20,578 bases of DNA from a virus: IMG/VR virus record IMGVR_UViG_3300048927_000054, positions 1 through 20,578 of that record; one strand, given 5' to 3'. A program made the position numbers and the translations under genes. The notes below the pieces were generated by a model. That model saw only the letters and a program-made list of their open reading frames with translations. It did not search any database and was not told where the DNA came from. Below, one piece after another: positions 1,897 to 20,518 of the stretch. Position 1 is the stretch's first letter, and every line of letters begins with the position of its first letter.

Positions 1897-2130
1897 ATGG
1901 CATCTAAAGACCTCACCCTTACATCAGATTGGCAGCAAATAACTGACGGCACACAGGATATGCAGCTGCAGGTGCTAGGCGGAACCATCTGGTTAAGAGA
2001 CTCCCCCAAGAAACCTGCAGTGAATGCGAAGGGCCACATCGTATCGACCATGGAGTGGATTGGCATTACCGCACCCCAGCAGATGTGGGCCAGATCGCAG
2101 GGCAGTAATGCATCAATAATTGTGACGTGA
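1897..2130 (+). CDS. Hypothetical 77-aa protein, probable accessory virion protein
   Basis: A 77-aa protein with a clear Shine-Dalgarno (AAAGGAG at 1884-1890, six bases before the ATG). It has no membrane segment. The sequence alternates polar and hydrophobic residues (LTLTSDWQQITDGTQDMQLQ, then IWLRDSP) and ends ASIIVT, which looks like a small all-beta domain. It is followed after eight bases by the repeat-containing protein and begins what appears to be a capsid-accessory cluster between the lysis and packaging genes. I do not recognise a named family. A small beta-sandwich decoration or fibre-associated protein is a reasonable guess from context only. Confidence 0.7.
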   Translation: MASKDLTLTSDWQQITDGTQDMQLQVLGGTIWLRDSPKKPAVNAKGHIVSTMEWIGITAPQQMWARSQGSNASIIVT

Positions 2131-2138
2131 GGTGAATT

Positions 2139-3140
2139 ATGGCTCTATTCCCACAAAGAGGATTCACCCCAGTCAAAATAGTCATGACCGACCAGGTGAA
2201 GGCGACCAACCTTGAAATTGGCAAGGTTGTAACCAATGCACCCGATCAGCCCGCTGGCGCATCCATTACCGGCGACGCACCAAAGCAGTTTCTTAACCTG
2301 GCGATCCCAAAGGGGCTGCCTGCAGATAGTCTTCCGCCGCCACAAATGAGGACGGGAACGGTAACTACTATTCCAGCTGGTAGTCAGCCAACTGTCGAGA
2401 TGACCGGCACTTATCCGGACTTCGTGGTTAATTTTGCCTTCCCGGCACCCTTAAACGGAAAAGATGCTGAGCAATACAAGCTGAGCATCGGAGAGATAAC
2501 AGCATTGCCTGCTGGAACCCAGCCTACCGCAAGCATAACTGGCGACCATCCAAACCAGTTGCTTAACGTAGGCCTTCCAATACCCAAGAATGGTGACGAT
2601 GGACGCAATGCAACTCTGAAGGTTGGGACGGTCACCACGCTTCCTTATGGGAATCCCGCCACGGTGGAGATTGCCGGAACAGGCCCCGAGCAAGTAGCAA
2701 ACTTCTCTATTCCTGCAGGAAAGGATGCATCAGACCCCATTCCTACATCATTCACTGTAGGCAGCGTCATACAGCTCGCGTCTAACAAAGCGCCAACGGT
2801 TGAGATTACCGGGGCAGCGCCGAAGCAGACGATTAACTTTGGGATACCAGCAGGCGCAAGTGCAACTCCAGCCAATTTCGAAACACTGGTATCGAAGGTG
2901 GTTGCGGCAGGTACTCCAGTGAGTGTCACCTTTGCCAAGAAATACAGCGTGCCGCCGGTCGTTTTACCGAATCCGATATGGAACGGAGATCAGCTGGTTA
3001 TGGGGCAGGCATCAGACATCACAGTCACTGGATGCAAGGTCATCGTTAAGCAATCTGTCGGAACTCTCCTCCTGAACGGCAGCCCATTTAATAACGCACC
3101 TAAAGACGCCTCCTTCAGCATGTTCGTAATCGGCAACTAA
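2139..3140 (+). CDS. Repeat-containing fibre-like structural protein (five 45-aa repeats)
   Basis: A 333-aa protein with Shine-Dalgarno TGAGGTGA at 2128-2135. After about 24 N-terminal residues it holds five tandem repeats: the conserved glycine opening each unit falls at residues 28, 73, 118, 163 and 208, exactly 45 apart. The approximate consensus is 'xVGxVTTLPAGxxPTVEITG' followed by 'xxPxQxxNFxIPxG'. Such repeats occur in phage head fibres, tail fibres and baseplate proteins, where they form beta-rich, probably trimeric stalks. The C-terminal 85 residues are a different, beta-rich domain (KKYSVPPVVLPNPIW ... FSMFVIGN) that may be the exposed tip. Neighbours with head-fibre features suggest capsid surface attachment, but tail attachment cannot be excluded. 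No enzymatic motif is visible. Confidence 0.82.
   Translation: MALFPQRGFTPVKIVMTDQVKATNLEIGKVVTNAPDQPAGASITGDAPKQFLNLAIPKGLPADSLPPPQMRTGTVTTIPAGSQPTVEMTGTYPDFVVNFAFPAPLNGKDAEQYKLSIGEITALPAGTQPTASITGDHPNQLLNVGLPIPKNGDDGRNATLKVGTVTTLPYGNPATVEIAGTGPEQVANFSIPAGKDASDPIPTSFTVGSVIQLASNKAPTVEITGAAPKQTINFGIPAGASATPANFETLVSKVVAAGTPVSVTFAKKYSVPPVVLPNPIWNGDQLVMGQASDITVTGCKVIVKQSVGTLLLNGSPFNNAPKDASFSMFVIGN
2211..2855 (+). repeat. Five degenerate tandem repeats of 135 bp coding for 45-residue units
   Basis: Units start near 2211, 2346, 2481, 2616 and 2751. Spacing is constant at 45 codons with no indel. Identity is clear in protein (G-x-V/I-T, P-T/A-x-x-I/M-T/A-G, P-x-x-x-x-N, P at the unit end) but low in DNA, which indicates old duplication with purifying selection on spacing rather than recent slippage. 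The first unit is the most divergent. Each unit's C-terminal linker differs in sequence but not in length. Confidence 0.85.
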
Positions 3141-3152
3141 GAGGAAATAACC

Positions 3153-3419
3153 ATGTCGCTTAAGCGCAACCAACTGCCTCGCTACCAGGGTAAAGACAAC
3201 CAGGTGCTGGCACTCAAAATCAAAGAAGTGCGTCAGGATGTAGATGGCGCTGGTTACATTGTGCCTGAAGATGATTTTTACCCTGAGTTTCAGGTGTCAG
3301 GTGAGTACATGAGTAAGTATCAGCCCAAAGCGGGCGGCTACTACGTCGAGCTGATTGATGGCGATCCGATTTACATGGATGCCAAAGACTTCTCCAAGCA
3401 ATACACACTGATGAAGTAA
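3153..3419 (+). CDS. Small protein with duplicated domain shared with the next gene
   Basis: An 88-aa protein that follows the repeat protein by 12 bases, with an AGAGGAAAT ribosome site. The sequence VLALKIKEVRQDVDGAGY, the central QVSGEYMSKYQPKAGGYY and the end GDPIYMDAKDFSKQY match, in order and spacing, the first about 82 residues of the next gene's product, so the two are paralogues. It lacks the head-fibre-like extension of that protein and consists of the shared domain only. It has no membrane segment or signal peptide. I infer a small virion surface or capsid-binding domain that could compete with, or sit beside, the longer paralogue. The family is not firmly recognised. Confidence 0.75.
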   Translation: MSLKRNQLPRYQGKDNQVLALKIKEVRQDVDGAGYIVPEDDFYPEFQVSGEYMSKYQPKAGGYYVELIDGDPIYMDAKDFSKQYTLMK

Positions 3420-3431
3420 CTAGGGGAAAAC

Positions 3432-3947
3432 ATGAAACGCCAATGGCCTACCTACAGCGACACGGACAACAACTTTGTTTATGCGCTACCCATTAAGTCA
3501 ATCAGGCAGACAGTAGACGGTTACGCCTACGCCAGCTTTGATGGTGACTTTGATGAGCAATACCTCTCACCGCAATTCATGGGCATCTTCCGGCCAGTAG
3601 TAGGCGGATACCTGTTTACCAGCGCATCAGGTGAACTGCTCTACATGAGCAAGGCCAAGTTTGAAGCGCAGTACAGTGCAGCCGGAGCTGCCGCAACATG
3701 GGCGAGCATCACCGGCAAGCCAGCGACATTTGCACCGACCATCGGCACGACTGCTACAACAGCGATGGCGGGCAATAAGACGCCAACGTCAGCAGAGCGT
3801 GGTGGTGTACTGCAACAGGCAGCAGAGGCAGCTATCCCGGCTCAGGCGGTTGCAGACATTGCCGCAGCACAGACCTCAATCAACACCATCGTGACAAAGG
3901 TCAACAGCATCCTCACCAAGCTGAAGGCCGGTGGCGAACTCGCGTAG
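3432..3947 (+). CDS. Head-fibre-like protein: paralogous N-domain plus fibre C-terminus
   Basis: A 171-aa protein. Residues 1-82 are homologous to the preceding 88-aa protein (ALPIKSIRQTVDG, VVGGYLF, YMSKAKFEAQY). A middle segment, WASITGKPATFAPTIG (90-105) followed by TPTSAERGGVLQQAA (117-131), is of the kind found in phage head- and tail-fibre proteins. The C-terminus (about 140-168) is a helical, probably trimeric coiled coil, INTIVTKVNSILTKLKAGG, like the end of Phage_fiber_2/head-fibre proteins such as the phi29 gp8.5 group. I infer that the N-terminal domain and the helical C-terminus serve for capsid attachment and trimerisation, but which end binds the capsid is unknown. It ends the accessory cluster; 52 bases with a small hairpin follow. 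Confidence 0.78.
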   Translation: MKRQWPTYSDTDNNFVYALPIKSIRQTVDGYAYASFDGDFDEQYLSPQFMGIFRPVVGGYLFTSASGELLYMSKAKFEAQYSAAGAAATWASITGKPATFAPTIGTTATTAMAGNKTPTSAERGGVLQQAAEAAIPAQAVADIAAAQTSINTIVTKVNSILTKLKAGGELA

Positions 3948-4253: not shown

Positions 4254-4742
4254 ATGGCAGCACCAAAGGGTAACCGATTCTGGGAGGCCCGCAGCAGTCA
4301 CGGGCGTAGTCCTAAGTTTGAGTCACCCGAGCAACTATGGGCTGCCTGTTGCGAATACTTCCAGTGGGTAGAAGAGCATCCACTGTGGGAGATGAAAGCA
4401 TTTGCCTACCAGGGTGAAGTGACACAAACGCCTATTGCGAAGATGCGGGCTATGACGCTCACCGGCTTAACTCTGTTTCTGGATATCACTTTAGAGACGT
4501 GGCGAGTGTATCGCTCCAGAGAAGACTTATCTGAAGTCACTACGCGAGCAGAGCAAGTTATCTATGACCAGAAGTTCTCTGGCGCTGCGGCTGACCTGCT
4601 TAACGCCAATATCATCGCCCGCGACCTTGGGCTGAAAGAGCAATCGCAAGTCGAAGACGTGACACCTGATAAGGGAGATCGTGATAAGCGACGCTCTCGC
4701 ATTAAGGAGTTACTGAGCCGTGGTGGAAGAAGCGATTCTTGA
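4254..4742 (+). CDS. 3: Small terminase subunit, P22 gp3-like
   Basis: A 162-aa DNA-recognition subunit of the packaging motor; P22 gp3 is also 162 aa. The N-terminus [20 protein letters not shown], the core ([38 protein letters not shown]) and the end ([20 protein letters not shown]) match P22 gp3 as I remember it at most positions. In P22, gp3 forms a nonameric ring, binds the pac site within its own gene and regulates headful initiation by gp2. The basic C-terminal tail (KRRSRIK) is the DNA- and gp2-interacting end in P22. The gene overlaps the large terminase by 23 bases. P22-like packaging specificity, hence P22-type transduction behaviour, is an inference from the similarity. Confidence 0.97.
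4522..4543 (+). other. Probable pac site inside gene 3 (P22-type)
   Basis: The 22 bases at 4522-4543 correspond to the P22 pac core as I recall it, with 19 of 22 positions the same. The differences are at positions 5 (C for T), 18 (A for G) and 19 (C for T). The site lies in the codons for [12 protein letters not shown], the same codons as in P22. In P22 this asymmetric site is recognised by gp3 and the packaging series begins near it, running rightwards into gene 2. The comparison is from memory. Confidence 0.7.
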
Positions 4743-6219
4743 TGACATGTCAGAAGAAGAGCAAATCGAGTTGCTTGAGCTTCTGGAGGCCGAAGAGCAG
4801 TACAGCAAGACACACGCTCTCTACGAGTTTGTGCCCTACACGAAGCAAAGAGAGTTCATTGATGCAGGCAGCGGGTATACAGAACGCTGCTTCATGGCCG
4901 GAAACCAGCTAGGCAAATCATTCACTGGTGGCGCAGAGGTTGCATTCCACCTGACCGGAAGGTACCCCGGCACCAAAGGCTATCCTCAGGATGCAGCCTG
5001 GCAGGGCGAGTGGGGTGGCAAACGCTTCGACTCCCCTGTTGTTTTCTGGGTAGGTGGCGAGACAAACGAAACCATCACCAAGACTACGCAGCGCATCCTG
5101 TGTGGTCGTATTGAAGAGAACGACGGCCCCGGATACGGCGCACTGCCTAAAGAAGACATCATCAGCTGGAAGAAGTCTCCGTTCGGGCCAAACCTTGTCG
5201 ATCACATTCTTATTCGTCATCACAATGAGGATGGCGTAGAGGATGGCATGTCCATCTGCTACTTCAAGCCATACTCGCAAGGCCGTCAGCGCTGGCAGGG
5301 TGACACCATTCACGGCGTCTGGTTCGATGAGGAGCCACCTTACAGCATCTACGCTGAGGGCCTGACTCGTACGAACAAATACGGCCAGTTCTCGATTCTG
5401 ACGTTCACACCGCTGATGGGCATGTCAGATGTCGTCATTAAGTTTCTGAAGAACCCCAGCAAAGCTCAGAAGGTAGTCAACATGACTATCTATGACGCCG
5501 ACCATTACACGGAAGAGCAGAAAGAGCGGATCATCGCTTCATACCCTGAGCATGAGCGAGAGGCCCGAGCGCGCGGAATCCCAACCATGGGTAGTGGTCG
5601 CATATTCCAGATACCCGAAGAGACCATTAAGTGCCAGCCGTTCGAATGCCCGGAACACTTCTACGTCATCAACGCAATGGACTTCGGATGGGACCACCCA
5701 CAGGCTCAGATACAACTCTGGTGGGATAAAGACGCCGATAAGATTTATATCGCTCAAGTCTGGAAGGCGGCGGAGAAGACTGCTGTCCAGGCATGGGGCG
5801 CTGTTAAAGCATGGAACAAAGGCATCCCCTGCGCATGGCCACATGATGGTCATCAGCATGAGAAAGGCGGAGGCGAGCAGCTTAAAGGGCAGTATGCAGA
5901 TGCAGGTTTCATGATGCTGCCTGAGCATGCGACATGGCCTGATGGAGGTAACGCAGTAGAGCCTGGCCTAATCGAGATGCGTGACATGATGCTGGACGGA
6001 CGATTTCAGGTATTCAACACCTGCGAGCCCTTCTTTGATGAGTTCCGCCTCTATCACCGCGATGAAAACGGCAAGATAGTCAAGCTCAACGATGACGTGT
6101 TATCAGCCGTCCGTTACGCCTACATGATGCGCAGGTACGCAAGATTGATGCGTGACATCAAGAAGCCCAAAGAGAAGAAATTACCGGCGCCAATTCGCCC
6201 AATTCCCCGGAGAAAATAA
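4720..6219 (+). CDS. 2: Large terminase subunit (ATPase-nuclease), P22 gp2-like
   Basis: The packaging motor, 499 aa as in P22. The ATPase domain is N-terminal: Walker A AGNQLGKS at residues 60-67 and Walker B GVWFDEE at 199-205 (D203, E204). The nuclease domain is C-terminal, with D321 in [10 protein letters not shown], the [11 protein letters not shown] region (375-385) and the DDVLSAVRY acidic motif (458-466) for metal binding. It cleaves the concatemer at pac and at each headful and drives DNA through the portal. The start is GTG 4720, giving the same length and N-terminal alignment (xxxxAILD) as P22; GTG 4723 is an alternative. AAGGAG at 4704-4709 is the likely ribosome site. No key residue appears missing. 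Confidence 0.98.
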
Positions 6220-8402
6220 TGGCCGACAATAACGAAAAATTGCAGACCATTCTCAGGAAGTTCGACCGGGACTGGACAGCAAGCGATGAGGCCAGAACTG
6301 AAGCAACCAACGATCTGTTCTTCAGCCGCATCAGCCAGTGGGATGACTGGCTAAACGAATACACCACACTGCAGTATCGCGGTCAGTTCGACGTGGTGCG
6401 CCCGGTAGTCCGCAAGCTGGTCGCAGAGATGCGCCAGAACCCTGTCGATGTGTTGTTCAAGCCGAAAGATGGCGCTGACCCTAACGCGGCCGACATCCTG
6501 ATGGGCATGTATCGCACAGACATGCGGCACAACACCGCGAAGATTTCCGTCAACGTGGCAGTGCGTGAGCAGATTGAAGCGGGTGTTGGTGCGTGGCGTC
6601 TGGTGACTGACTATGAAGACCAGGACCCGACGAGCAACAATCAGGTTATTCGCCGCGTTCCCATTCATGAGGCATGCACTCACGTTGTGTGGGATGCCAA
6701 CGCCAAGCAGATGGACAAGAGCGACGCTAAGCACTGCACAGTTATCAGCGCCATGAGCAAAGACGGCTGGGAAGCGTTTGCTGAAGAGCATGACCTCGAT
6801 GAGGAGGATTTGCCTGACTTCCAGTCGCCATCCTCTAACTGGGCGTTCCCGTGGTCTACCAACGATGTTTACTACATCGCTGAGTATTACGAGGTTGAAG
6901 AGAAGAAAGAGACGGTATTCATCTATCAGGACCCAATGACAGGTGAGCCGGTCAGCTACTTCAAGCGCGACATTAAAGACGTCATTGATGAACTGGCAGA
7001 CAAGGGCATGGAGAAGATTGGCGAGCGCAAGGTAACGCGCCGCCGTGTCTACAAAAGCCTCCTGACCAACACGATGATTCTGAAAGACCGCGAACTGATT
7101 GCCGGTGAGCACATCCCGATCGTGCCCGTGTTCGGAGAATGGTCATTTGCTGGCGACAAAGAAGTGTATGAAGGCGTTGTCAGGCTGACGAAAGACGGTC
7201 AGCGCCTGCGCAACATGATCATGTCCTTCAATGCCGATATTGTTGCCCGCTCACCGAAAAAGAAACCGTTCTTTCATCCTGAGCAGATTGCTGGTTATGA
7301 GCACATGTACAGCGGGACGGATGATTACCCCTACTACCTGCTGAACAAGACCGATGAGAACGGTGGAGATATGCCTCCCCAGCCTCTCGGCTACTACGAA
7401 AACCCCGAGGTTCCACAAGCCAACGCCTACATGCTGGAAGCAGCTACCGGCGCGGTGAAGGAAGTGGCAACACTCGGAGTGGACGCAGAAGCAGCGGGCG
7501 GACAGGTGGCGTTCGATACCGTCAACCAACTGAACATGCGCGCTGACCTTGAGACATACGTGTTTCAGGATAACCTGGCTACAGCAATGCGCCGTGACGG
7601 GGAGATTTACGCGGCGATGGTCAATGACATCTACGACGTGCCACGCAACGTCTCAATGACGCTGGAAGATGGTAGCGAGAAAGAGGTTCAGCTGCTTTCT
7701 CAGGTCATGGACTTCCAGGCCGGCAAGGTAGTGACACTGAACGATATCCGAGGCCGGTATGAGACCTATACCGATGTCGGCCCATCGTTCCAGTCGATGA
7801 AGAATCAGAACCGCTCCGAGCTTCTCGACCTGCTTTCGAAGGTTCCGCCAGGCACGCCTGAATATCAGATGCTCCTGCTTCAGTACTTCACGCTGCTTGA
7901 TGGTAAAGGTGTGGAGATGATGCGTGAGTACGCCAACCGGCAACTGGTCACGATGGGTCTCAAGAAACCAGAGACGCCAGAAGAGCAGCAATGGGTGGCA
8001 GAGGCACAGCAGCAGCAACAGAACACGCCAGACCCGGCAATGGTTCAGGCGCAGGGCGTTTATCTGCAGGGTCAGGCTGACCTGATGAAAGCGCAGAATG
8101 ACCAGCAGTCACTCACCATTGAGGCCGCTAAGGTCGACGCTACCAGCCAGCTCAACGCGGCGAAGATAGCAGAAATCTTCAACGGCATGGACCTCGACAA
8201 GCAGAAGGCATTCCGTGAATACCTCGAGCTTATGGGTCACTTCCAGAAACAAACCAGTGATGACAGTCGCGCAAATGCAGAGCTCCTGCTGAAAGGTTCG
8301 GGGCAACAACATTCGCAGCGAATGGATATGACTAACTTCCTGCAATCGCAGAGACAAAATTCACCTTCCGCCAATCCCGGCGAGATTCCTCGAACCATGT
8401 GA
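6219..8402 (+). CDS. 1: Portal protein, P22 gp1-like
   Basis: A 727-aa subunit of the dodecameric portal ring at the packaging vertex (P22 gp1 is 725 aa). The ATG shares its first base with the terminase stop. The N-terminal part ([40 protein letters not shown]) and core ([40 protein letters not shown]) are P22-like. From about residue 600 the sequence is helical and glutamine-rich ([14 protein letters not shown], then long helices to about 710). This fits the extended C-terminal barrel that in P22 reaches into the capsid, senses DNA pressure and contacts ejection proteins. Below the ring it is the docking site for gp4. Nothing is truncated. Confidence 0.97.
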
Positions 8403-8416
8403 GAGAGTTAAACAAC

Positions 8417-9328
8417 ATGAGCGATACCACCGAAATTCAGAACACTGAAGAACAAACCCTGCCCGGCGATCACACTGCGGCATCAGTTGAGAGTCAGGTT
8501 GACGGCAATGCCACCGGCACCGAAGGGCAGGATGAGGGCTTTGACATTGTCCTGAATGACGATGAGAACAAGCCGAAGCAGGACCACGAAACAAACGCGA
8601 AGTTTGCTGCTCGTCGCCTGGCACGTAAGCGCCAGCGTGAACTTGAACAGCAGATGGAGGCGGTGAGTCGTGGTGAGCTTCCGGAAACCCTGCGGGTTAA
8701 TCCTGATTTACCCAAGCAGCCGGACGTGAATGAGTTCCTGTCAGACGATGCTTTGGCAAAGTATGACTACGACACCAGTCGCGCACTGGCTGCTTTTAAC
8801 GCTGCCAACACAGACTGGCTGATTAAGGCTCAGGACGCACGCAGCAATGCGGTAGCTGAGCAGGGGCGCAAGACGCAGGATTACACCCGCAACTCCACTC
8901 AGGTTGTCGAGGCGGCGCGCAAGCACTATGACGCCGCAGAGAAACTGAACCTTAGCGACTATCAGGAAACTGAAGAGGCTTTCAATGCGCTGGTGCCACC
9001 GGGTACTGACGTGGAGATTATGAACCTCTTCCCTGAGAAGTCGGCTGCGATCATCTACCACCTGGGTAAAAACCCGGAGAAGACCCGACAAATCCTGAGC
9101 ATGAACTCACAGCAGGCGCTGATTGAAATCACGCGCCTCTCAGATCGTTTAACTCTCAAGCCCCGCGGTAAGCAGGTGTCAGCAGCCCCACCGGTCGATG
9201 AGCCGATTCAGGGCAGTGTTGGCTCGGCCAATGTGTCTGCTCTTCAGAAGAAGATGGATGAAGCCGCACGACGTGGTGATACAGCGACATATCGCAAACT
9301 TAAAGAACAGATTAAAGGAATCCGCTAA
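8417..9328 (+). CDS. 8: Scaffolding protein, P22 gp8-like
   Basis: A 303-aa scaffolding protein, the same length as P22 gp8, that directs coat assembly into procapsids and exits before DNA packaging. I chose ATG 8417 ([13 protein letters not shown]) because it gives the P22 length and N-terminus. A GTG at 8399 overlapping the portal stop would add six residues. The acidic N-terminus, the [20 protein letters not shown] region, the long charged helices ([20 protein letters not shown]) and the basic helix-turn-helix C-terminus ([20 protein letters not shown], then KGIR) match. In P22 the last residues bind coat. In P22, scaffold represses its own synthesis post-transcriptionally; no element for that was identified here. 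Confidence 0.97.
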
Positions 9329-10632
9329 TGGCACTTAACGAAGGTCAGATGGTAACTCTCGCAGTAGACGAAGTTATCGAAACAATGCAGAACATCATGC
9401 CGATGGTTATGAAGGTGGATAAGTACACTCCGCCAGGCCGCGAAATGCAGCGCGGTGATAACACCATCTGGATGCCCGTAGAACAGGAAGCACCGACTCA
9501 GCGCGGCTGGGACCTGACCGACAAAGAAACCGACCTGCTCGAACTGAACGTGAAGGTCACTCTTGATGAGCCGGATAACGACTTCTTCGACATTCGCGCC
9601 GATGATGTGCGTGACGAGTCAACCTACCGCCGCCGCATTGCCGCCTCCGCTAAAAAGCTGGCGAACAACGTGGAAGCGGAGATTGCCCGTACCGCTGCTG
9701 AGATGGGTTCGCTGGTTGTGACCAGCACCGGCCCGGTCGGCAGCGCTAACACCGGCTGGGACTTCATCTCTGAAGCTGAATCGCTGATGTTCTCACGCGA
9801 GCTGAATCGCGATGCAGGCCTGTCATTCTTCTTCAACGCCAACGATTATCGCGGCGCCGGGCGTGACCTGGCTGGCAAAGACTTCTACGGCCGCATTCAG
9901 GATGACGCTTACACCAAAGGCGTGATTCAGAAGCAGGTTGCAGGCTTCAACGACGTGCTGCGTTCGCCAAAACTGCCGACTCTGGTTAAGTCTGATGCGA
10001 CCGGCGTTACTGTCAGTGGCGCGCAGAAGTTCAAGCCTCAGTCATGGCGTCTGAACGAAGACAACAGCCGTGAAAACGTGGATAACCGCTTTGCGACCGT
10101 CAACGTCAGCTCCGGCACCGGCTTCAAGCGCGGCGACAAGATTTCGTTCGCAGGCGTTAAGTTCCTCGCGCAGATGGCGAAAAACGTGCTGGTTCAGGAT
10201 GCGACTTTCTCTGTCGTGGCTGTGAACGGCAACGCCATCACTATCACTCCGAAGCCTGTTGCGCTGGATGATACCAGCCTGACTGCTGCAGAGCGTGCGT
10301 ATGCCAACGTCAACACGTCACTGGCTGCCGGAGCGGCTATCAATGTGCTGAACACTGATACCGTGGCAACCAACGTGTTTTGGGCTGATGACTCTATCCG
10401 CCTGGTATCGCAGCCAATTCCGCTGAACCACTCGCTGTTTGCTGGCATGAAGTCTGAAGCGTTCTCCATCCCGGGCACCGGCCTGAATGGGGTCATCGCC
10501 TTCCAGGGTGACATCAGCACACTGAGCGGCAAGTGCCGTATTGCACTGTGGTACAAGTCCACCGCCGTGCGTCCGGAAGCAATCGGTGTTGGCCTGGCGA
10601 ATCAGGATGTAGCAACCGCCGTAGAAGGCTGA
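9328..10632 (+). CDS. 5: Major coat protein, P22 gp5-like
   Basis: A 434-aa major capsid protein (P22 gp5 is 430 aa), starting in a TAATG overlap with the scaffold gene. The N-arm [56 protein letters not shown], the [17 protein letters not shown] region and the end RPEAIGVGL are P22-like. It should have the HK97 fold plus the P22-type inserted I-domain (roughly residues 220-345, [12 protein letters not shown] ... RAYANVNTS), which stabilises the monomer and shapes capsid size. It would assemble as a T=7 shell if like P22. A strong terminator follows directly. Codon use is more regular and GC-rich than in the neighbouring accessory genes, as expected for a highly expressed gene. Confidence 0.97.
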
Positions 10633-10671: not shown

Positions 10672-11262
10672 ATGAGCGTAATGCTTTATAAGTCAGGCCG
10701 CGGCACCAAGGTGTGGGGCAAAGAACTGCAATCAAAAGTAGTTAGCGATGATGATGTTGAAGAATTGCTTGCAGATGGCTGGTATGAGCATCCCGGCGAC
10801 GTACCTGAAGAAGCAGGAGCCGATGAAGATACCGGCGTAGATGTTAATACTAATACCACAGAAGACATGGGTGAAGTATCTGATGGATATCACACCTTCA
10901 ACGAACTCTATGCGCATCGTGTTCGTCTTTTCTCTACCCTGATGAATGCATTCCCTAAGCAGGCGTGGTGGAGCTTTCAGCATCATGATGGTGAGCAGTG
11001 GGAAGGGTGGGTTCTGGCTGGAATCGACACTCCTGAAGGCGCGGTAACGTACCATCTGCCAGAGAGCGAAATCGAAAACCTTCCGCAGGGAACGGAGATC
11101 GAGTTTGGCAAAGAGTGGGATGGTCACACTGCTGATGATGTTCTGTCTCGCCTGTTGAGTATCCGCCCAGAAGCAAAAAAGAAGGGTGGACGCAAGCCTG
11201 ATCCAAAGCCAGGCGCTGAACCTCATGCAGAGGTAAATGATGAACCTGACAACGAAAGCTGA
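10672..11262 (+). CDS. Two-domain protein of unknown function between coat and gp4
   Basis: A 196-aa protein starting 13 bases after the terminator, with ribosome site GGAGAAG. Residues 1-45 (YKSGRGTKVWGKELQ, DVEELLADGWYEHPGDV) look like a small domain of the kind often encoded next to phage capsid genes. Residues 46-68 are an acidic, threonine/asparagine linker. Residues 70-165 contain SDGYHTFNELYAHRVRLF, a tryptophan-rich centre, VTYHLPESEIENLP and EWDGHTADDVLSRLLS. I recognise this pattern as a widespread phage domain of unknown function, often seen as a separate accessory protein. A lysine-rich, then acidic, tail follows. I know of no counterpart in P22 itself. Its 3' end overlaps gene 4. 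It could be a minor head protein or a moron; no catalytic residues can be named. Confidence 0.75.
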   Translation: MSVMLYKSGRGTKVWGKELQSKVVSDDDVEELLADGWYEHPGDVPEEAGADEDTGVDVNTNTTEDMGEVSDGYHTFNELYAHRVRLFSTLMNAFPKQAWWSFQHHDGEQWEGWVLAGIDTPEGAVTYHLPESEIENLPQGTEIEFGKEWDGHTADDVLSRLLSIRPEAKKKGGRKPDPKPGAEPHAEVNDEPDNES

Positions 11263-15981: not shown

Positions 15982-18323
15982 TGGCTAAGGCATGGAAAGA
16001 GGTGATCGCGACACCCCAGTATCAGGCGCTATCACCAGACCAGAAAGCAGCCGCACAGAATCAGTACTTCGACGAAGTTGTGGCACCTAAAGCTGGACCG
16101 CAGGCTGATGTCGCTCGCCAGCAGTTCTTTACCGCTTATCCGCCAGTATCCAGCACGCAGCAATCTCAGCCCGTGCAGCCACAGAATCAGCCAGGAAGCC
16201 CCATTGAAGAAGCCGGTAAGGGCCTGCTGCAGGCTGGCGTGAACGTTGCCAATATCCCGGCAGAAGTCATGGATGCATTCAAAAGCGCTGGCTCATGGGC
16301 TGCCGGCAAGCTCGGATTGGGCGACGGTACATATCAGCCAACGCAGCGTGTTGAGCTGCCACAGAACCTTCAGCCGCAGGATGAGTACGCCAAAATTGGC
16401 GCAGAGATTGGCCCTTACCTGATTCCCGGCGTTGGGGCAGAGAGAACAGCCGCAGCTCTCGGCAGCGTGGCGGGTGCAGGCAGGGGCGAACGGCTGGCCA
16501 CGCAGGCATCTAACATGCTGGCAGAAAACGTACCGGGCGTGCTGGCGCAGAACAGCGACCAGAATGATGCTGGCTCTCTGGCAGGCGATCTGGCGCTGGG
16601 CGCTGCAGGCAGTGTGGCGGGCAGGGCTTTGGTGGCAGGGGGAGGCGCTGCCGTACGCGGTGTACGAAATCTCCTTGGCCGCGAGGCTGCTGAAGCAGCA
16701 CCTGCCGCAACGCAACCACTTACGCAAGCTGCGGCAACCCCTGAAGTTCAGAGCGCTCAGATGGCACCTGAATATGCCAGGGCGGCGCAGTCTGGCAAAG
16801 AGGGGCGCATTGCTCAGGTAGTTAATGACATCCAGCCAGACCAGAAAGTTGTCGAGGCAATGCGGCGGCTCGACATCAATCCGGATGACATGCTGGAAGC
16901 CTACACGTCAGGAAATGACGCTTTTAAGGCCGTGCAGATTGGCCTTGCCTCACAAGATGAGTCAGCACTGGCAGCCGTGCGTCGTGATAGTCTGAGCCGC
17001 ATCTCTCAACGCGCTGCGAAGATTATCGACGACGCTGGCGCAATGCCTGACCGGCTCGCTATGGATGACGCATTCAAGGCTCGGTTCAATACAGCACGGG
17101 AAGGGCTGAAGTCGCAGGAGGAGCAACTCTACAAGCCTGTGCAGGATGCTATTCCGCCGCGCCAGCCGGTAGATGCAGAAAACACCCGCGCCTACCTTGA
17201 TGGACTTGCTGATGACCTCAATGGCGCACAGCATCTGTCACCAATCGAAAAGCGCATCTATGAATCAATATCGCCTACAAGTGACAAGGGCGGCGAAATG
17301 ACTTATGCCCGCCTCAATCAGGCGAGGAGCATTGTTGGTGCGGAACTTCGTAAGTCAGGAACGCCTTTCGGCAGCGCTGAAGAAAGGAATCTGGCTCAGC
17401 TCTACAGTCAGCTATCAAACGATCGTGATGCTGTCGCTAAAGCGGCTGGATTTGGCGACCAGATAAAGCTGGCTAACGCCGTTACAGCCCAGCGCAAGAT
17501 GATGGAAGAGAACGTTTATAGCCTGCTTGGCAAGGATTTGAGCGGTAACGTTACAGTAAAGGCTCAGGGAGCGCTGAACGGGCTGCAAAGCGGCGATACG
17601 AAGGGATTTACGCAGCTGATGCGTACAGTTCCAGATAAGGATACTCGCGCTCAACTGGTGGCTACGGGCCTCAGGGATATGTTCAGGAAGGGATCGCGAA
17701 ACGAGGTGGATAACAACATCAACGGATTCGTTAATTTCTACGCTGACCTGAAGAGAAAGGGCACTGACAGGCTACTGCACAAAGAGCTCCCACCTCAGAC
17801 CGTGCGTGAGCTTGAGGACTTTTACACGCTCGCCCGCAATGTGACTTCTGCAAACCGTTACTACCTGGCGACAGGGAAGCTCAATTCTTTCCTGGAGAAA
17901 TTTGATAAGCCCGGTGGATTCCTCGACAAACTTGCGACGCACGGAAAAATGGCGACGATCGCAACGGTGCTCGGACACGTCCCTGTAGCAGGTCCGGTGC
18001 TGAACACAGCTATCGCTGCTCAGATGGGCGCAAGGGCAGCAACTCAGCGCTCTGGTGCGTCAGCGGTGCAGGAAATGATGGGCAGCTCAACATTCAAGAA
18101 TCTGACAGCGGCCGCCCGCAACAAACCGGGTACCGCAGCGCAGGCGAAGATTATTGCTGATGCAGAGAAGAAAATAGGCTCGACTAAAGCATGGAAGGAG
18201 TTCTTCCGCACGCTGCCAAAGACTGAGAAGCAGAAGATTGCGAGGGTAGGAATTATCGGCTGGCTTAGCGGCGACGAAGATAGCGACGACACCAGTCAGC
18301 AACTGAAAGCAGTATCCCAATAG
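15981..18323 (+). CDS. 16: Large ejection protein in the gp16 position
   Basis: A 780-aa protein, notably longer than P22 gp16 (609 aa), starting in a TAATG overlap with gene 20. The N-terminus AWKEVIATPQYQALSPDQKA is a small domain common at the start of phage internal proteins. It is followed by a P/Q-rich linker (53-72). A glycine/alanine-rich hydrophobic stretch lies at about 202-225 and another at about 658-684 (ATIATVLGHVPVAGPVLNTA), which could insert in the host membrane. The middle is helical and charged. The C-terminus (AWKEFFRTLPKTEKQKIARV, GWLSG) echoes the AWKE motif of the N-terminus. In P22, gp16 is needed for DNA entry. Gene order makes the role likely; sequence identity to P22 gp16 cannot be judged here. 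Confidence 0.87.
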   Translation: MAKAWKEVIATPQYQALSPDQKAAAQNQYFDEVVAPKAGPQADVARQQFFTAYPPVSSTQQSQPVQPQNQPGSPIEEAGKGLLQAGVNVANIPAEVMDAFKSAGSWAAGKLGLGDGTYQPTQRVELPQNLQPQDEYAKIGAEIGPYLIPGVGAERTAAALGSVAGAGRGERLATQASNMLAENVPGVLAQNSDQNDAGSLAGDLALGAAGSVAGRALVAGGGAAVRGVRNLLGREAAEAAPAATQPLTQAAATPEVQSAQMAPEYARAAQSGKEGRIAQVVNDIQPDQKVVEAMRRLDINPDDMLEAYTSGNDAFKAVQIGLASQDESALAAVRRDSLSRISQRAAKIIDDAGAMPDRLAMDDAFKARFNTAREGLKSQEEQLYKPVQDAIPPRQPVDAENTRAYLDGLADDLNGAQHLSPIEKRIYESISPTSDKGGEMTYARLNQARSIVGAELRKSGTPFGSAEERNLAQLYSQLSNDRDAVAKAAGFGDQIKLANAVTAQRKMMEENVYSLLGKDLSGNVTVKAQGALNGLQSGDTKGFTQLMRTVPDKDTRAQLVATGLRDMFRKGSRNEVDNNINGFVNFYADLKRKGTDRLLHKELPPQTVRELEDFYTLARNVTSANRYYLATGKLNSFLEKFDKPGGFLDKLATHGKMATIATVLGHVPVAGPVLNTAIAAQMGARAATQRSGASAVQEMMGSSTFKNLTAAARNKPGTAAQAKIIADAEKKIGSTKAWKEFFRTLPKTEKQKIARVGIIGWLSGDEDSDDTSQQLKAVSQ

Positions 18324-18615
18324 CAATGCAGGCGCAGATGAAGCACAGGACGATGCTCACTGCGCTTATTTTTTGCGGGTGAAGGAAATCTAATCCCGCG
18401 GCAACAACGAGCCAGCATAAGCATAAGGCGACCGAATATGTCAGGCCGCTTAGCTTCCCTTTGCTGATCGCAATCCAGTTTATAAACCTTCGAATTCCTT
18501 TGATCACCATCAGTAGCGCAACGATGCCTGCCAGCCAATACAGCAGGGGCGGCCACATGCGCGCCGCTATCACCACCATCATCACTGCAACTGTCATCTG
18601 AATAACTGGGTGCAT
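18265..18615 (-). CDS. Four-helix membrane protein in the sieA/immI position (moron)
   Basis: A 116-aa protein on the opposite strand to everything else. ATG 18615 has a strong ribosome site (AAAGGAG, read on the minus strand at 18621-18627), and an upstream start inside the tailspike gene is unnecessary. Four hydrophobic segments lie at about 5-19, 23-40, 58-78 and 83-106, with basic loops (KGIRRF, SKGK) and a very basic end (CRRYLRRR). It has six cysteines, all in or near helices 3 and 4. The 3' end overlaps gene 16 by 59 bases. P22 has sieA, a minus-strand inner-membrane superinfection-exclusion gene, plus mnt/arc/ant at this place. I see no clear sequence similarity to SieA, so exclusion is an inference from location and topology. 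Confidence 0.8.
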   Translation of the reverse strand: MHPVIQMTVAVMMVVIAARMWPPLLYWLAGIVALLMVIKGIRRFINWIAISKGKLSGLTYSVALCLCWLVVAAGLDFLHPQKISAVSIVLCFICACIAIGILLSVADWCRRYLRRR

Positions 18616-18658
18616 AAAAACTCCTTTTAAATAAACATAGCCATCACGGAGCAAACCA

Positions 18659-20518
18659 ATGGCAGATATCAAAGCCAACGTTGTTATATCAATGCCGGCT
18701 CAGCTTTTCACAGCATCCCGCGCCCTTAAGGCTCTGGCTAACGGAACGGTATATATCGGCAGGCCGGATACTGACCCGACATTGCCTGAGAACCAGATTC
18801 AGGTATACGTTGAGCAGGAAGACGGCTCTGTTATTGCGGTGCCTCAGCCCGTCATGATTAATGCTGGCGGCTTTCCTGTATATAACGGCAGCATTGCAAA
18901 GTTTGTCACTGTAGAAAACCACGCTATGTCTGTTTATGACAGCTTTGGCGTCTTGCAATTTTATTTCCCAAATGTTCTGAAATATGCTCCAGACCAGCTG
19001 CGTCAGGAATTGAGTTCCAGCGCAGGCGGCTCGATGATTGGCCTCAGCGATGGCTTAACGCTTCAACAGTTTGCAGACCGGGCTGGATTTCGCCTTTATT
19101 ACGTGACGCCTGAGGAGTTTGGTGCGAAAGGCGATGGTGTTACTGACGACCGCGTGGCGATTAATAGCGCGATCGCCGTGGGACTCCCTGTTAAGTTGAG
19201 CAAATTCTATAACGTTTCATCTGGCTCTATTAACATCCTGACCGGCACCCGCCTTTATTCAGATGGCGCCCGCGTCAAGAGTAACTCCACCACCGCGGCG
19301 TTTATCTATGCGTTCAACGTAGACGACTGGAGTGTAGAAGGCCGACTGACACTGATCGGTACCGGTACTACAACAGACCAGGGGCAGAACGGATTCCTCG
19401 AAAGTGGCTGCCAGAATTACCGTGTCGAAAATGTCACGGCATCCGGCATCTCAGGGCGCGGCTTCTATCAGCCTTCTAACGGCACATGGGAAGCTCCTCG
19501 CGGCAATAAAGGGGTGTGGACCAACTGCTCATCCTACTTCAGCTACTGTGGTCGTGAGGACGTTGCCGCATCAATTAGCACTAACCTTGTTGGTGAGTTC
19601 ACGACCTGGGTTAACTTCAAGGCGTCTGGCTGTAATATCGGCTCCCGCACATCAGCTGGCAACTGCCAGTTCATCGGGGGCATGCTGGTAGATAACCAGG
19701 AAGGTTTCACCAGCCCGGAAGTTGGCACGAATACGACCCATGGGCAGGCAGTAGGGATGACGATCGCCCATAACGCCGTTTATAACGTGAACATGGTCGC
19801 ACAGACGGCTGGGTTCACTTTCAGTGGCTGCAGCATCTACGGTGACACACCAACTGCAGGAGCAGTCAGGCTTGACCGTTGCCGCGGCGTTAAGTTTGTG
19901 GGCGGCAATTTCGAGGCAAGCATTTATAACGATGGACCCGGCACCAACTTTGTCGTGGGTTGCTACAACAACAATAACTTTGCGTTTTTCCGTTCAGGTG
20001 GAAACCCGGAAGGCATCGTTATTACCGACCTGTACGATCAGAGCGGTTACTCTTCCCGTAACGACGTCTTCTACGCTCACTCTGAAGCAACGTTCCAGGG
20101 CAACACATTAATCAGCTACCTCAATACCAACTTTGCCGGGCGTATGGCCTTTAACTTCTCAGCACGCGACCCGCAGAAAACCATGGACGTAACCAACTCG
20201 GCAACCATGGGATACAAGTACTGCCGCATCTCTGGCAGGGTGGCGGTGAGCACAAAGATTCATGTCACTGGCATGACCTCTGGTGCGACGATATACCTGA
20301 CTGTCGTAAGGGTGAGGGCTGGCGTGGCAAATGAGGACGTGGTGTATCAGACTATCCCGACATACAGCACAACGGCGGCTGCGGGCTGTCTTAACTCGGA
20401 AGTGAACGTTGTTGCCGGTGATGCGCTATTCATGAAGATAACGCTATCAACCGGCGATGGAACCATTACGGCGAGCAGGACGGAGTTTGCGTCACACTAC
20501 ATCGGTGGTGCAGGCTAA
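18659..20518 (+). CDS. 9: Tailspike with P22-type head-binding domain and beta-helix
   Basis: A 619-aa receptor-binding protein (P22 gp9 is 667 aa). Residues 1-115 are the P22-type head-binding domain: MADIKANVVISMPAQLFTAS, ANGTVYIGRPDTDP, MINAGGFPVYNG and PNVLKYAPDQL match P22 gp9 closely. A short linker (about 112-148) leads to EEFGAKGDGVTDDRVAINSA (152-171), the usual entry of a pectate-lyase-type right-handed beta-helix that runs to about 500. A final beta-rich domain (about 510-619, YKYCRISGRVAVSTKIHV to the end) is probably for trimerisation or binding. The body is unrelated by eye to the P22 endorhamnosidase, so the O-antigen or capsule target is different and unknown. The ribosome site is CGGAG (18647-18651). 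Confidence 0.95.
   Translation: MADIKANVVISMPAQLFTASRALKALANGTVYIGRPDTDPTLPENQIQVYVEQEDGSVIAVPQPVMINAGGFPVYNGSIAKFVTVENHAMSVYDSFGVLQFYFPNVLKYAPDQLRQELSSSAGGSMIGLSDGLTLQQFADRAGFRLYYVTPEEFGAKGDGVTDDRVAINSAIAVGLPVKLSKFYNVSSGSINILTGTRLYSDGARVKSNSTTAAFIYAFNVDDWSVEGRLTLIGTGTTTDQGQNGFLESGCQNYRVENVTASGISGRGFYQPSNGTWEAPRGNKGVWTNCSSYFSYCGREDVAASISTNLVGEFTTWVNFKASGCNIGSRTSAGNCQFIGGMLVDNQEGFTSPEVGTNTTHGQAVGMTIAHNAVYNVNMVAQTAGFTFSGCSIYGDTPTAGAVRLDRCRGVKFVGGNFEASIYNDGPGTNFVVGCYNNNNFAFFRSGGNPEGIVITDLYDQSGYSSRNDVFYAHSEATFQGNTLISYLNTNFAGRMAFNFSARDPQKTMDVTNSATMGYKYCRISGRVAVSTKIHVTGMTSGATIYLTVVRVRAGVANEDVVYQTIPTYSTTAAAGCLNSEVNVVAGDALFMKITLSTGDGTITASRTEFASHYIGGAG
18664..18692 (-). promoter_or_regulatory. Possible minus-strand promoter for the membrane protein gene
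   Basis: Read on the minus strand: TTGATA (18692-18687), a 17-base spacer, then ATATCT (18669-18664) as a weak -10. It would start transcription about 40 bases before the membrane protein ATG, inside the first codons of the tailspike gene. The -35 is near consensus, but the -10 is poor. Confidence 0.3.

Follow-up and report, generated by a model that had tools for sequence, protein, structure and literature searches.

A tight gene row ahead of the terminase

The window analysed here, the whole 20,578-nt stretch at positions 1 to 20,578 of IMG/VR virus record IMGVR_UViG_3300048927_000054, comprises a P22-like late region with lysis genes, small and large terminase, portal, a scaffold position, coat and tail needle, the last matching phrog_1219 in the PHROG search. 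A large protein at 18659-20518 occupies the tailspike place and takes its name from that position alone. We focused on two plus-strand genes, flanked by the lysis genes on one side and the terminase on the other, S88 (3153-3419, 88 aa) and D171 (3432-3947, 171 aa), whose reading frames agreed with the initial annotation. They lie in a tight row, in which the stop codon of F333, a fibre-like protein upstream (2139-3140, plus strand), is followed after 12 nt by S88, and the S88 stop codon after 12 nt by D171. Plausible ribosome-binding sites, recognised in the sequence, precede both genes (GAGGAA at 3141-3146 before S88, AGGGGAA at 3422-3428 before D171, plus strand), and a small protein, u77 (1897-2130, plus strand; phrog_4772), is encoded in the same row.

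S88 is a stand-alone Dec-like OB-fold protein without a spike. D171 was divided into residues 1-84 (3432-3683), a Dec-type OB-fold that is the capsid-binding foot in phage L Dec; residues 85-136 (3684-3839), a linker and a module common to other tips according to alignment A6 and AlphaFold2 (AF2); and residues 137-167 (3840-3932), a coiled-coil tip predicted from an AF2 helix and heptads. In phage L, the dec gene occupies the equivalent place to D171, before the small terminase gene. The presumed docking surface, a P22-type coat protein (PF11651, E 2e-156), is encoded on the plus strand at 9328-10632. A promoter scan returned one promoter-like site against 2.3 expected, and a terminator scan four terminator-like sites against 4.0 expected, none on the plus strand. 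Elsewhere in the window, the gene after the coat (10672-11262) encodes a WDGH domain protein (PF25311, E 4.1e-40) where phage L has orf186, and a minus-strand ORF of 137 aa (18265-18678), flanked by the 780-aa gene and the last gene, has several hydrophobic stretches and may encode a membrane protein.

The shared OB-fold and the exchanged tip of D171

S88 and D171 were compared by BLASTP, which aligned them with 30 identities in 82 positions (37%, E 8e-15). The pair scored 131, while the best of 2,000 shuffled 88-mers reached 52 (Z about 21). Profiles built from 50 solo-type and 34 fused-type sequences matched each other with a probability of 96.3% (E 1.9e-9, 81 columns). Both proteins matched phage L Dec (PDB 6E3C) by sequence in phmmer, S88 at E 0.0051 and D171 at E 4.6e-26. 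The AF2 model of S88 (mean pLDDT 82.3) had its strands and helices in the order seen in Dec; Foldseek returned 6E3C as its sole PDB match at E <= 0.001 (E 9.5e-5), and VIA-align superposed 85 residues of the two (Z 8.5, rmsd 2.7), against a Z of 5.8 for the next row. The OB model of D171, with block-mean pLDDT mostly near 90, matched 6E3C at E 1.2e-8 (Foldseek). By sequence and predicted structure, both S88 and D171 have the OB-fold known from phage L Dec. The last residue of S88 lies four residues after the end of the OB-fold, and the C-terminal trimerising spike is absent.

Over residues 5-78, D171 shared 55-58% identity with phage L Dec and related proteins, and its N-terminal part matched phrog_3018, 'head decoration protein' (E 3e-12). 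A search with D171 matched 64 phage records, none of which spanned 80% of it, and its last 88 residues had no tblastn match among phages. Residues 75-168 matched phrog_1954, 'virion structural protein' (E 2.2e-11). At E <= 1, D171 matched no Pfam family and so no named head-fibre family, such as the phi29-type PF11133. The segment after the OB-fold contains the linker TWASITGKPATFAP and the module IGTTATTAMAGNK...RGGVLQQAA (alignment A6), and residues 81-130 had AF2 pLDDT mostly under 65. Residues 137-167 were predicted to form a helix, the block means of pLDDT over 141-160 being 90 and 93. Its heptads have I143/I150/V157/L164 in the 'a' positions and A146/I153/I160 in the 'd' positions; beta-branched side chains in such core positions favour trimers. 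The C-terminal segment is unlike the Dec spike in sequence and is predicted to be helical; it may take over trimerisation.

The initial annotation had proposed a domain shared between the 88-aa protein and the first 82 residues of the 171-aa protein, with a C-terminal coiled coil in the latter, and the pairwise and profile alignments and the predicted helix bear this out. Its theme of a head-decoration protein with an added C-terminal segment likewise agrees with the Dec and phrog_3018 matches. The description of that segment as fibre-like stands in the general sense of the phrog_1954 match, but the link to a head-fibre family found no counterpart in Pfam.

Dec-type tips were then counted at 83 loci, the window included and duplicate loci removed. 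There were 42 L-type beta-helices, 29 tips of coil A and eight of coil B, two hybrids and two loci cut in the tip. On sequence evidence, D171 is a Dec homologue whose spike has been replaced by a linker and a predicted coiled coil, and a single docking foot is combined with several interchangeable tips. In the two hybrids (L136 and L137, 4974-5477), an L-type OB-fold is followed by the IGTTATTAMAGN module and then by an L-type beta-helix. The E. coli prophage HL15 carries a Dec-type gene, annotated as hypothetical, before its terminase gene (2 of 5,426 genomes matched).

The S88 lineage and its docking residues

S88 matched phrog_11049 over residues 6-85 (E 1.2e-11). Searches of Pfam and NCBIfam gave no match to S88; PGDYG (PF14083), for which no members were found for comparison, was among the Pfam families without a match, and a BFVD 'PGDYG protein' matched only weakly (E 0.14). 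In IMG/VR, a profile of S88 relatives identified 144 encoded relatives, the majority being small solo proteins in quite different phages (80 of 144 relatives were retained in one viral scan and 80 of 115 in another). All wide-family relatives tested matched phrog_11049, and the family pattern reads MPRYxCHKxVWALKIK...GGYYVVYEDGYxSxSPAxAFExGYT. Fused forms fall in phrog_872 (Tad2-like), phrog_9467 (Gp49_66) and phrog_37613 (MazG-like). In a Pantoea eucrina prophage, the S-type domain follows a Tad2-like domain (L046, 5575-6345; E 5.5e-16); at L101 (980-1708), it is fused to Gp49_66 (PF13876, E 8.6e-25); the MazG-like fusion is supported by the PHROG profile and predicted structure; and a P1-like phage gene annotated DUF2829 begins with it (L183, 2992-3669). 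A literature search on the Tad2 and DUF2829 fusions yielded nothing of use. Solo members sit near replication, lysis or regulatory genes, and the neighbourhoods are mixed, the commonest terminase family being matched by just 6 of 119 neighbouring ORFs (119 of 206 ORFs were used, mostly on the same strand, with near-copies dropped). PaBG gp234 goes unmentioned, in the available part of its source, among 14 Coomassie-visible proteins identified, which are too few to count as a test. Among 61 Pantoea genomes, two matched S88, the full protein occurring only in P. eucrina LMG 5346, where a P22-type coat is also encoded, and the other being a weak match to a Tad2 fusion; the single D171 match (1 of 61) fell on the S88 of LMG 5346 itself.

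We compared the S88 group with the wide family at three hallmark motifs, which we defined ourselves from alignment A5. The results showed that [CS]HK, [KR]HxP and GYxS[YFW]SP were each absent from the S88 group (0/10), whereas the wide family carried them in 39/40, 40/40 and 40/40 rows, respectively. Such a loss would be expected if the binding partner had changed. The 50 proteins of A5, picked as solo, all end 2-16 residues past the last OB residue; C-terminally extended proteins such as L042, L043, L083, L093, L098, L101 and L108 were left out of this alignment. In an unrooted tree of 87 columns, the Dec clade, D171 included (34 rows), lay on one side of a branch with 100/100 support, and the S88 group was intermediate, with Dec to one side and the wide family to the other (93/100), and a very long branch to Dec (3.6 changes per column). 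Rival topologies joining S88 with the wide-type solo S95 (p 0.13) or Dec with S95 (p 0.35) were not rejected. Separate lineages of S88 and D171 are well supported, with the direction of change left unset by an unrooted tree, and S88 is, in sequence terms, not a truncated D171 and instead a member of a separate spikeless lineage allied to phrog_11049. The S88 dN/dS ratios of about 0.03-0.24 indicate strong purifying selection in the pairs with computable dS (two dS values were uncomputable). A truncated relic was dismissed, since dN fell far short of dS in the pairs for which both were computed, and a recent duplication was dismissed on the separate clades and long branch of the tree. In the open-licence literature, we found no paper tying Dec to phrog_11049 and none in which a stand-alone Dec domain is described as a decoration protein.

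The residues that bind Dec to the coat were examined against published mutants. In the available part of PMC6449081, Dec K30D and Y49E lowered binding, Y31A, Y71A and E73R did not, and the coat changes E81R and E323R lowered Dec binding. The same part describes the Dec OB-fold as legs and the C-terminal region as stalk, with little or no inter-subunit contact in the first 77 residues, and a partly available review (PMC7602432) places trimerisation exclusively in the C-terminal tail. D171 has site-1 residues, R25 and Y44, at the Dec K30 and Y49 positions. Across the 34 rows of the Dec clade, the K30 position holds K in 16, T in seven, N in six and R in five, and the Y49 position holds Y in 29. 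In the S88 group (n=10), the K30 position is basic (R nine, K one), as it is in 12 of 37 wide-family rows. The Y49 position there holds E in seven, D in two and Q in one (the alignment of S88 to Dec may shift by one residue near Y49; DSSP strands of both models fit the pairing used), the Y71 position D in 10/10, and the E73 position Q in nine and D in one.

The coat of the window is 68% identical to the phage L coat and retains E81 and P82. Position 81 is E or D in 13/13 coats extracted from D171-bearing records (of the full set of 20 coats, L207, L208 and L209 were not extracted and are excluded from the counts). S88-only coats likewise keep E or D there, which shows merely that the docking acid is available. 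A P22-type coat was found in 20/20 records searched with S88, D-type or S95 genes, among them all nine S88-bearing ones, compared with 1 of 16 sampled wide-family records. The association of S88 with this coat may merely reflect phage kinship. Other P22-like phages carry S95, a wide-type solo, at the equivalent pre-terminase place, so a gene in this position need not act on the head, and the position is no proof that S88 does.

Candidate roles of the two proteins

The reading we tentatively prefer, at a little under an even chance, is that D171 forms trimeric decoration spikes, with S88 as a second protein of the head surface that has no spike and docks in another way. The N-terminal OB-fold of D171 would serve as the foot on the P22-type coat, and its linker and coiled coil would substitute for the Dec beta-helix as the trimerising spike. 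S88 would most likely be an accessory protein of the head, without a spike and probably monomeric; a monomer is expected because S88 consists of the OB-fold only, while Dec trimerises through its C-terminal tail. Lacking the Dec site-1 tyrosine and the site-2 residues, S88 would dock through a different contact and would not compete with D171. The outcome would be a two-component decoration of sparse trimeric spikes and small OB caps. The P22-type coats in all S88 records searched, the lost wide-family motifs, purifying selection and a solo gene beside the capsid gene of phage PdC23 all favour a head role for S88. Against it stand the loss of Y49 and Y71/E73, which leaves the basic K30 position as the sole tested Dec contact predicting capsid binding, the avidity that a single foot would lose without a trimer, and the fusions and mixed neighbours of the wide family. 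D171 adds a new kind of tip to a known decoration protein, and S88 is a spikeless relative with a putative role.

We regard it as rather unlikely, and yet a serious prospect, that S88 is a non-virion protein, an accessory gene expressed late and retaining a cytosolic phrog_11049 role (ligand binding or counter-defence) at a pre-terminase place that collects cargo. The wide family is fused to Tad2-like, Gp49_66, DUF2829-annotated and MazG-type partners, its solo members neighbour replication, lysis or regulatory genes, and it is accompanied by a P22 coat in a single sampled record, all of which fits such a role. However, S88 has lost the wide-family motifs and so probably does not share a ligand with that family, and P22-type coats accompanied it in every record searched.

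A further reading, improbable in our estimate, is that Dec arose when the widespread phrog_11049 domain was captured at the pre-terminase place of P22-like phages and swappable spikes were added to it, S88 being the surviving spikeless intermediate that, unconstrained by trimer geometry, caps single coat contacts which Dec trimers cannot span. If so, S88 would cap, for example, the quasi-three-folds round the pentons, giving one fold in two states and a fuller T=7 cover.

Co-occurrence was assessed on 16 S88-group contigs (15 including the window, plus L213), of which 10 had a Dec-type gene directly downstream at gaps of 10-16 nt, five had none and one was cut. Non-L-type Dec loci (41, two of them cut in the tip) carried S88 in 10 cases, a wide-type solo in one (L097) and neither in 30; none of the 42 L-type loci had either. 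In that P22-like phage, the solo gene (L097, 5007-5291, 95 aa) and the coil-B Dec-type gene (6043-6651, 203 aa) are 748 nt apart. Contigs found with u77 carried S88 in 5/5 cases. S88 lay directly downstream of F333 relatives in 8/8 contigs, with D171 present in only 5/8, and L213, located through F333 alone, encodes an S88 that is 65% identical and has no D171. Together with the 12-nt spacing in the window, this pattern suits an S88 that serves F333 as an adaptor or cap for fibre attachment or folding. We consider such a role quite improbable, since S88 occurs without F333 in eight contigs, the pattern could come from linkage alone, and the F333-based search gave only four contigs, three of them already known.

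A duplicate pair in which one copy lost or gained a fibre and both compete for the same capsid site, as the initial annotation had suggested, is very improbable: the 37% identity, tandem order and tight spacing agree with it, and the tree position of S88 between Dec and the wide family would permit an old local duplication, but D171 falls in the Dec clade and S88 in a separate solo group across a very long branch, the binding residues differ (Y49 to E/D/Q and Y71 to D in the S88 group), and proteins of the S lineage as a rule have no spike. Nor do the genes form an obligate pair, each also occurring alone.

Compared with phage L Dec, D171 has a 57% identical OB-fold over residues 5-78 and a P22-type coat with E81/P82, but lacks the L-type beta-helix sequence. 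S88 has the same fold as Dec (26-27% identity in structural alignments), but no C-terminal segment, and Y49, Y71 and E73 are changed. Its profile match, size and fold family are those of phrog_11049, whereas it lacks the three motifs and has so far appeared only in P22-coat records (9/9 searched). Pantoea phage PdC23 encodes a solo protein of about S88 size (UGC97720.1), known from its annotation, 'Dec protein OB-Fold Decoration', directly 3' of the major capsid gene; unlike S88, it is very divergent (end branch 1.77) and belongs to another phage type and coat. The phi29 protein gp8.5 is a head fibre. T4 has a two-component decoration, Soc and Hoc, a pair named in the available part of PMC7602432. 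These systems resemble the window in having a head fibre or two decoration proteins together, but S88 and D171 both belong to a single fold family.

Most useful here is the tie between Dec and phrog_11049, as it would offer a first fold and a route to function for a wide uncharacterised family, and this link stands even if S88 proves to be non-virion. In the available part of PMC6449081, P22 is described as having no Dec despite a coat nearly the same as that of phage L, and Dec as discriminating between nearly identical three-fold sites for a reason treated as unknown. A spikeless relative beside a differently spiked Dec could serve as a probe of trimer geometry versus OB surface in site choice, and interchangeable tips on one foot could be of use in capsid display.

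Relatives of F333 keep their N- and C-terminal parts and exchange the shaft (L013, 3699-4985; L015, 3675-4985; L017, 1-981; L047, 799-1779). Some shafts consist of about five to seven 45-residue repeats, and those of L017 and L047 are collagen-like (Gly-X-Y); Pantoea phage AAM22 has the C-terminal domain of F333 too, in its 'structural protein containing collagen triple helix repeat'. At L016 (2939-3199), u77 is joined to the last F333 residues (NAPINATASMFVIGTGN), and the joint looks like a deletion scar at which the fibre was lost and S88 and D171 were kept. The large terminase (4254-6219 in the window) has also been swapped among close relatives, being 43% identical in L007 and L008 and 97% identical in L018, and the portal is 92-100% identical in all three despite the terminase exchange.
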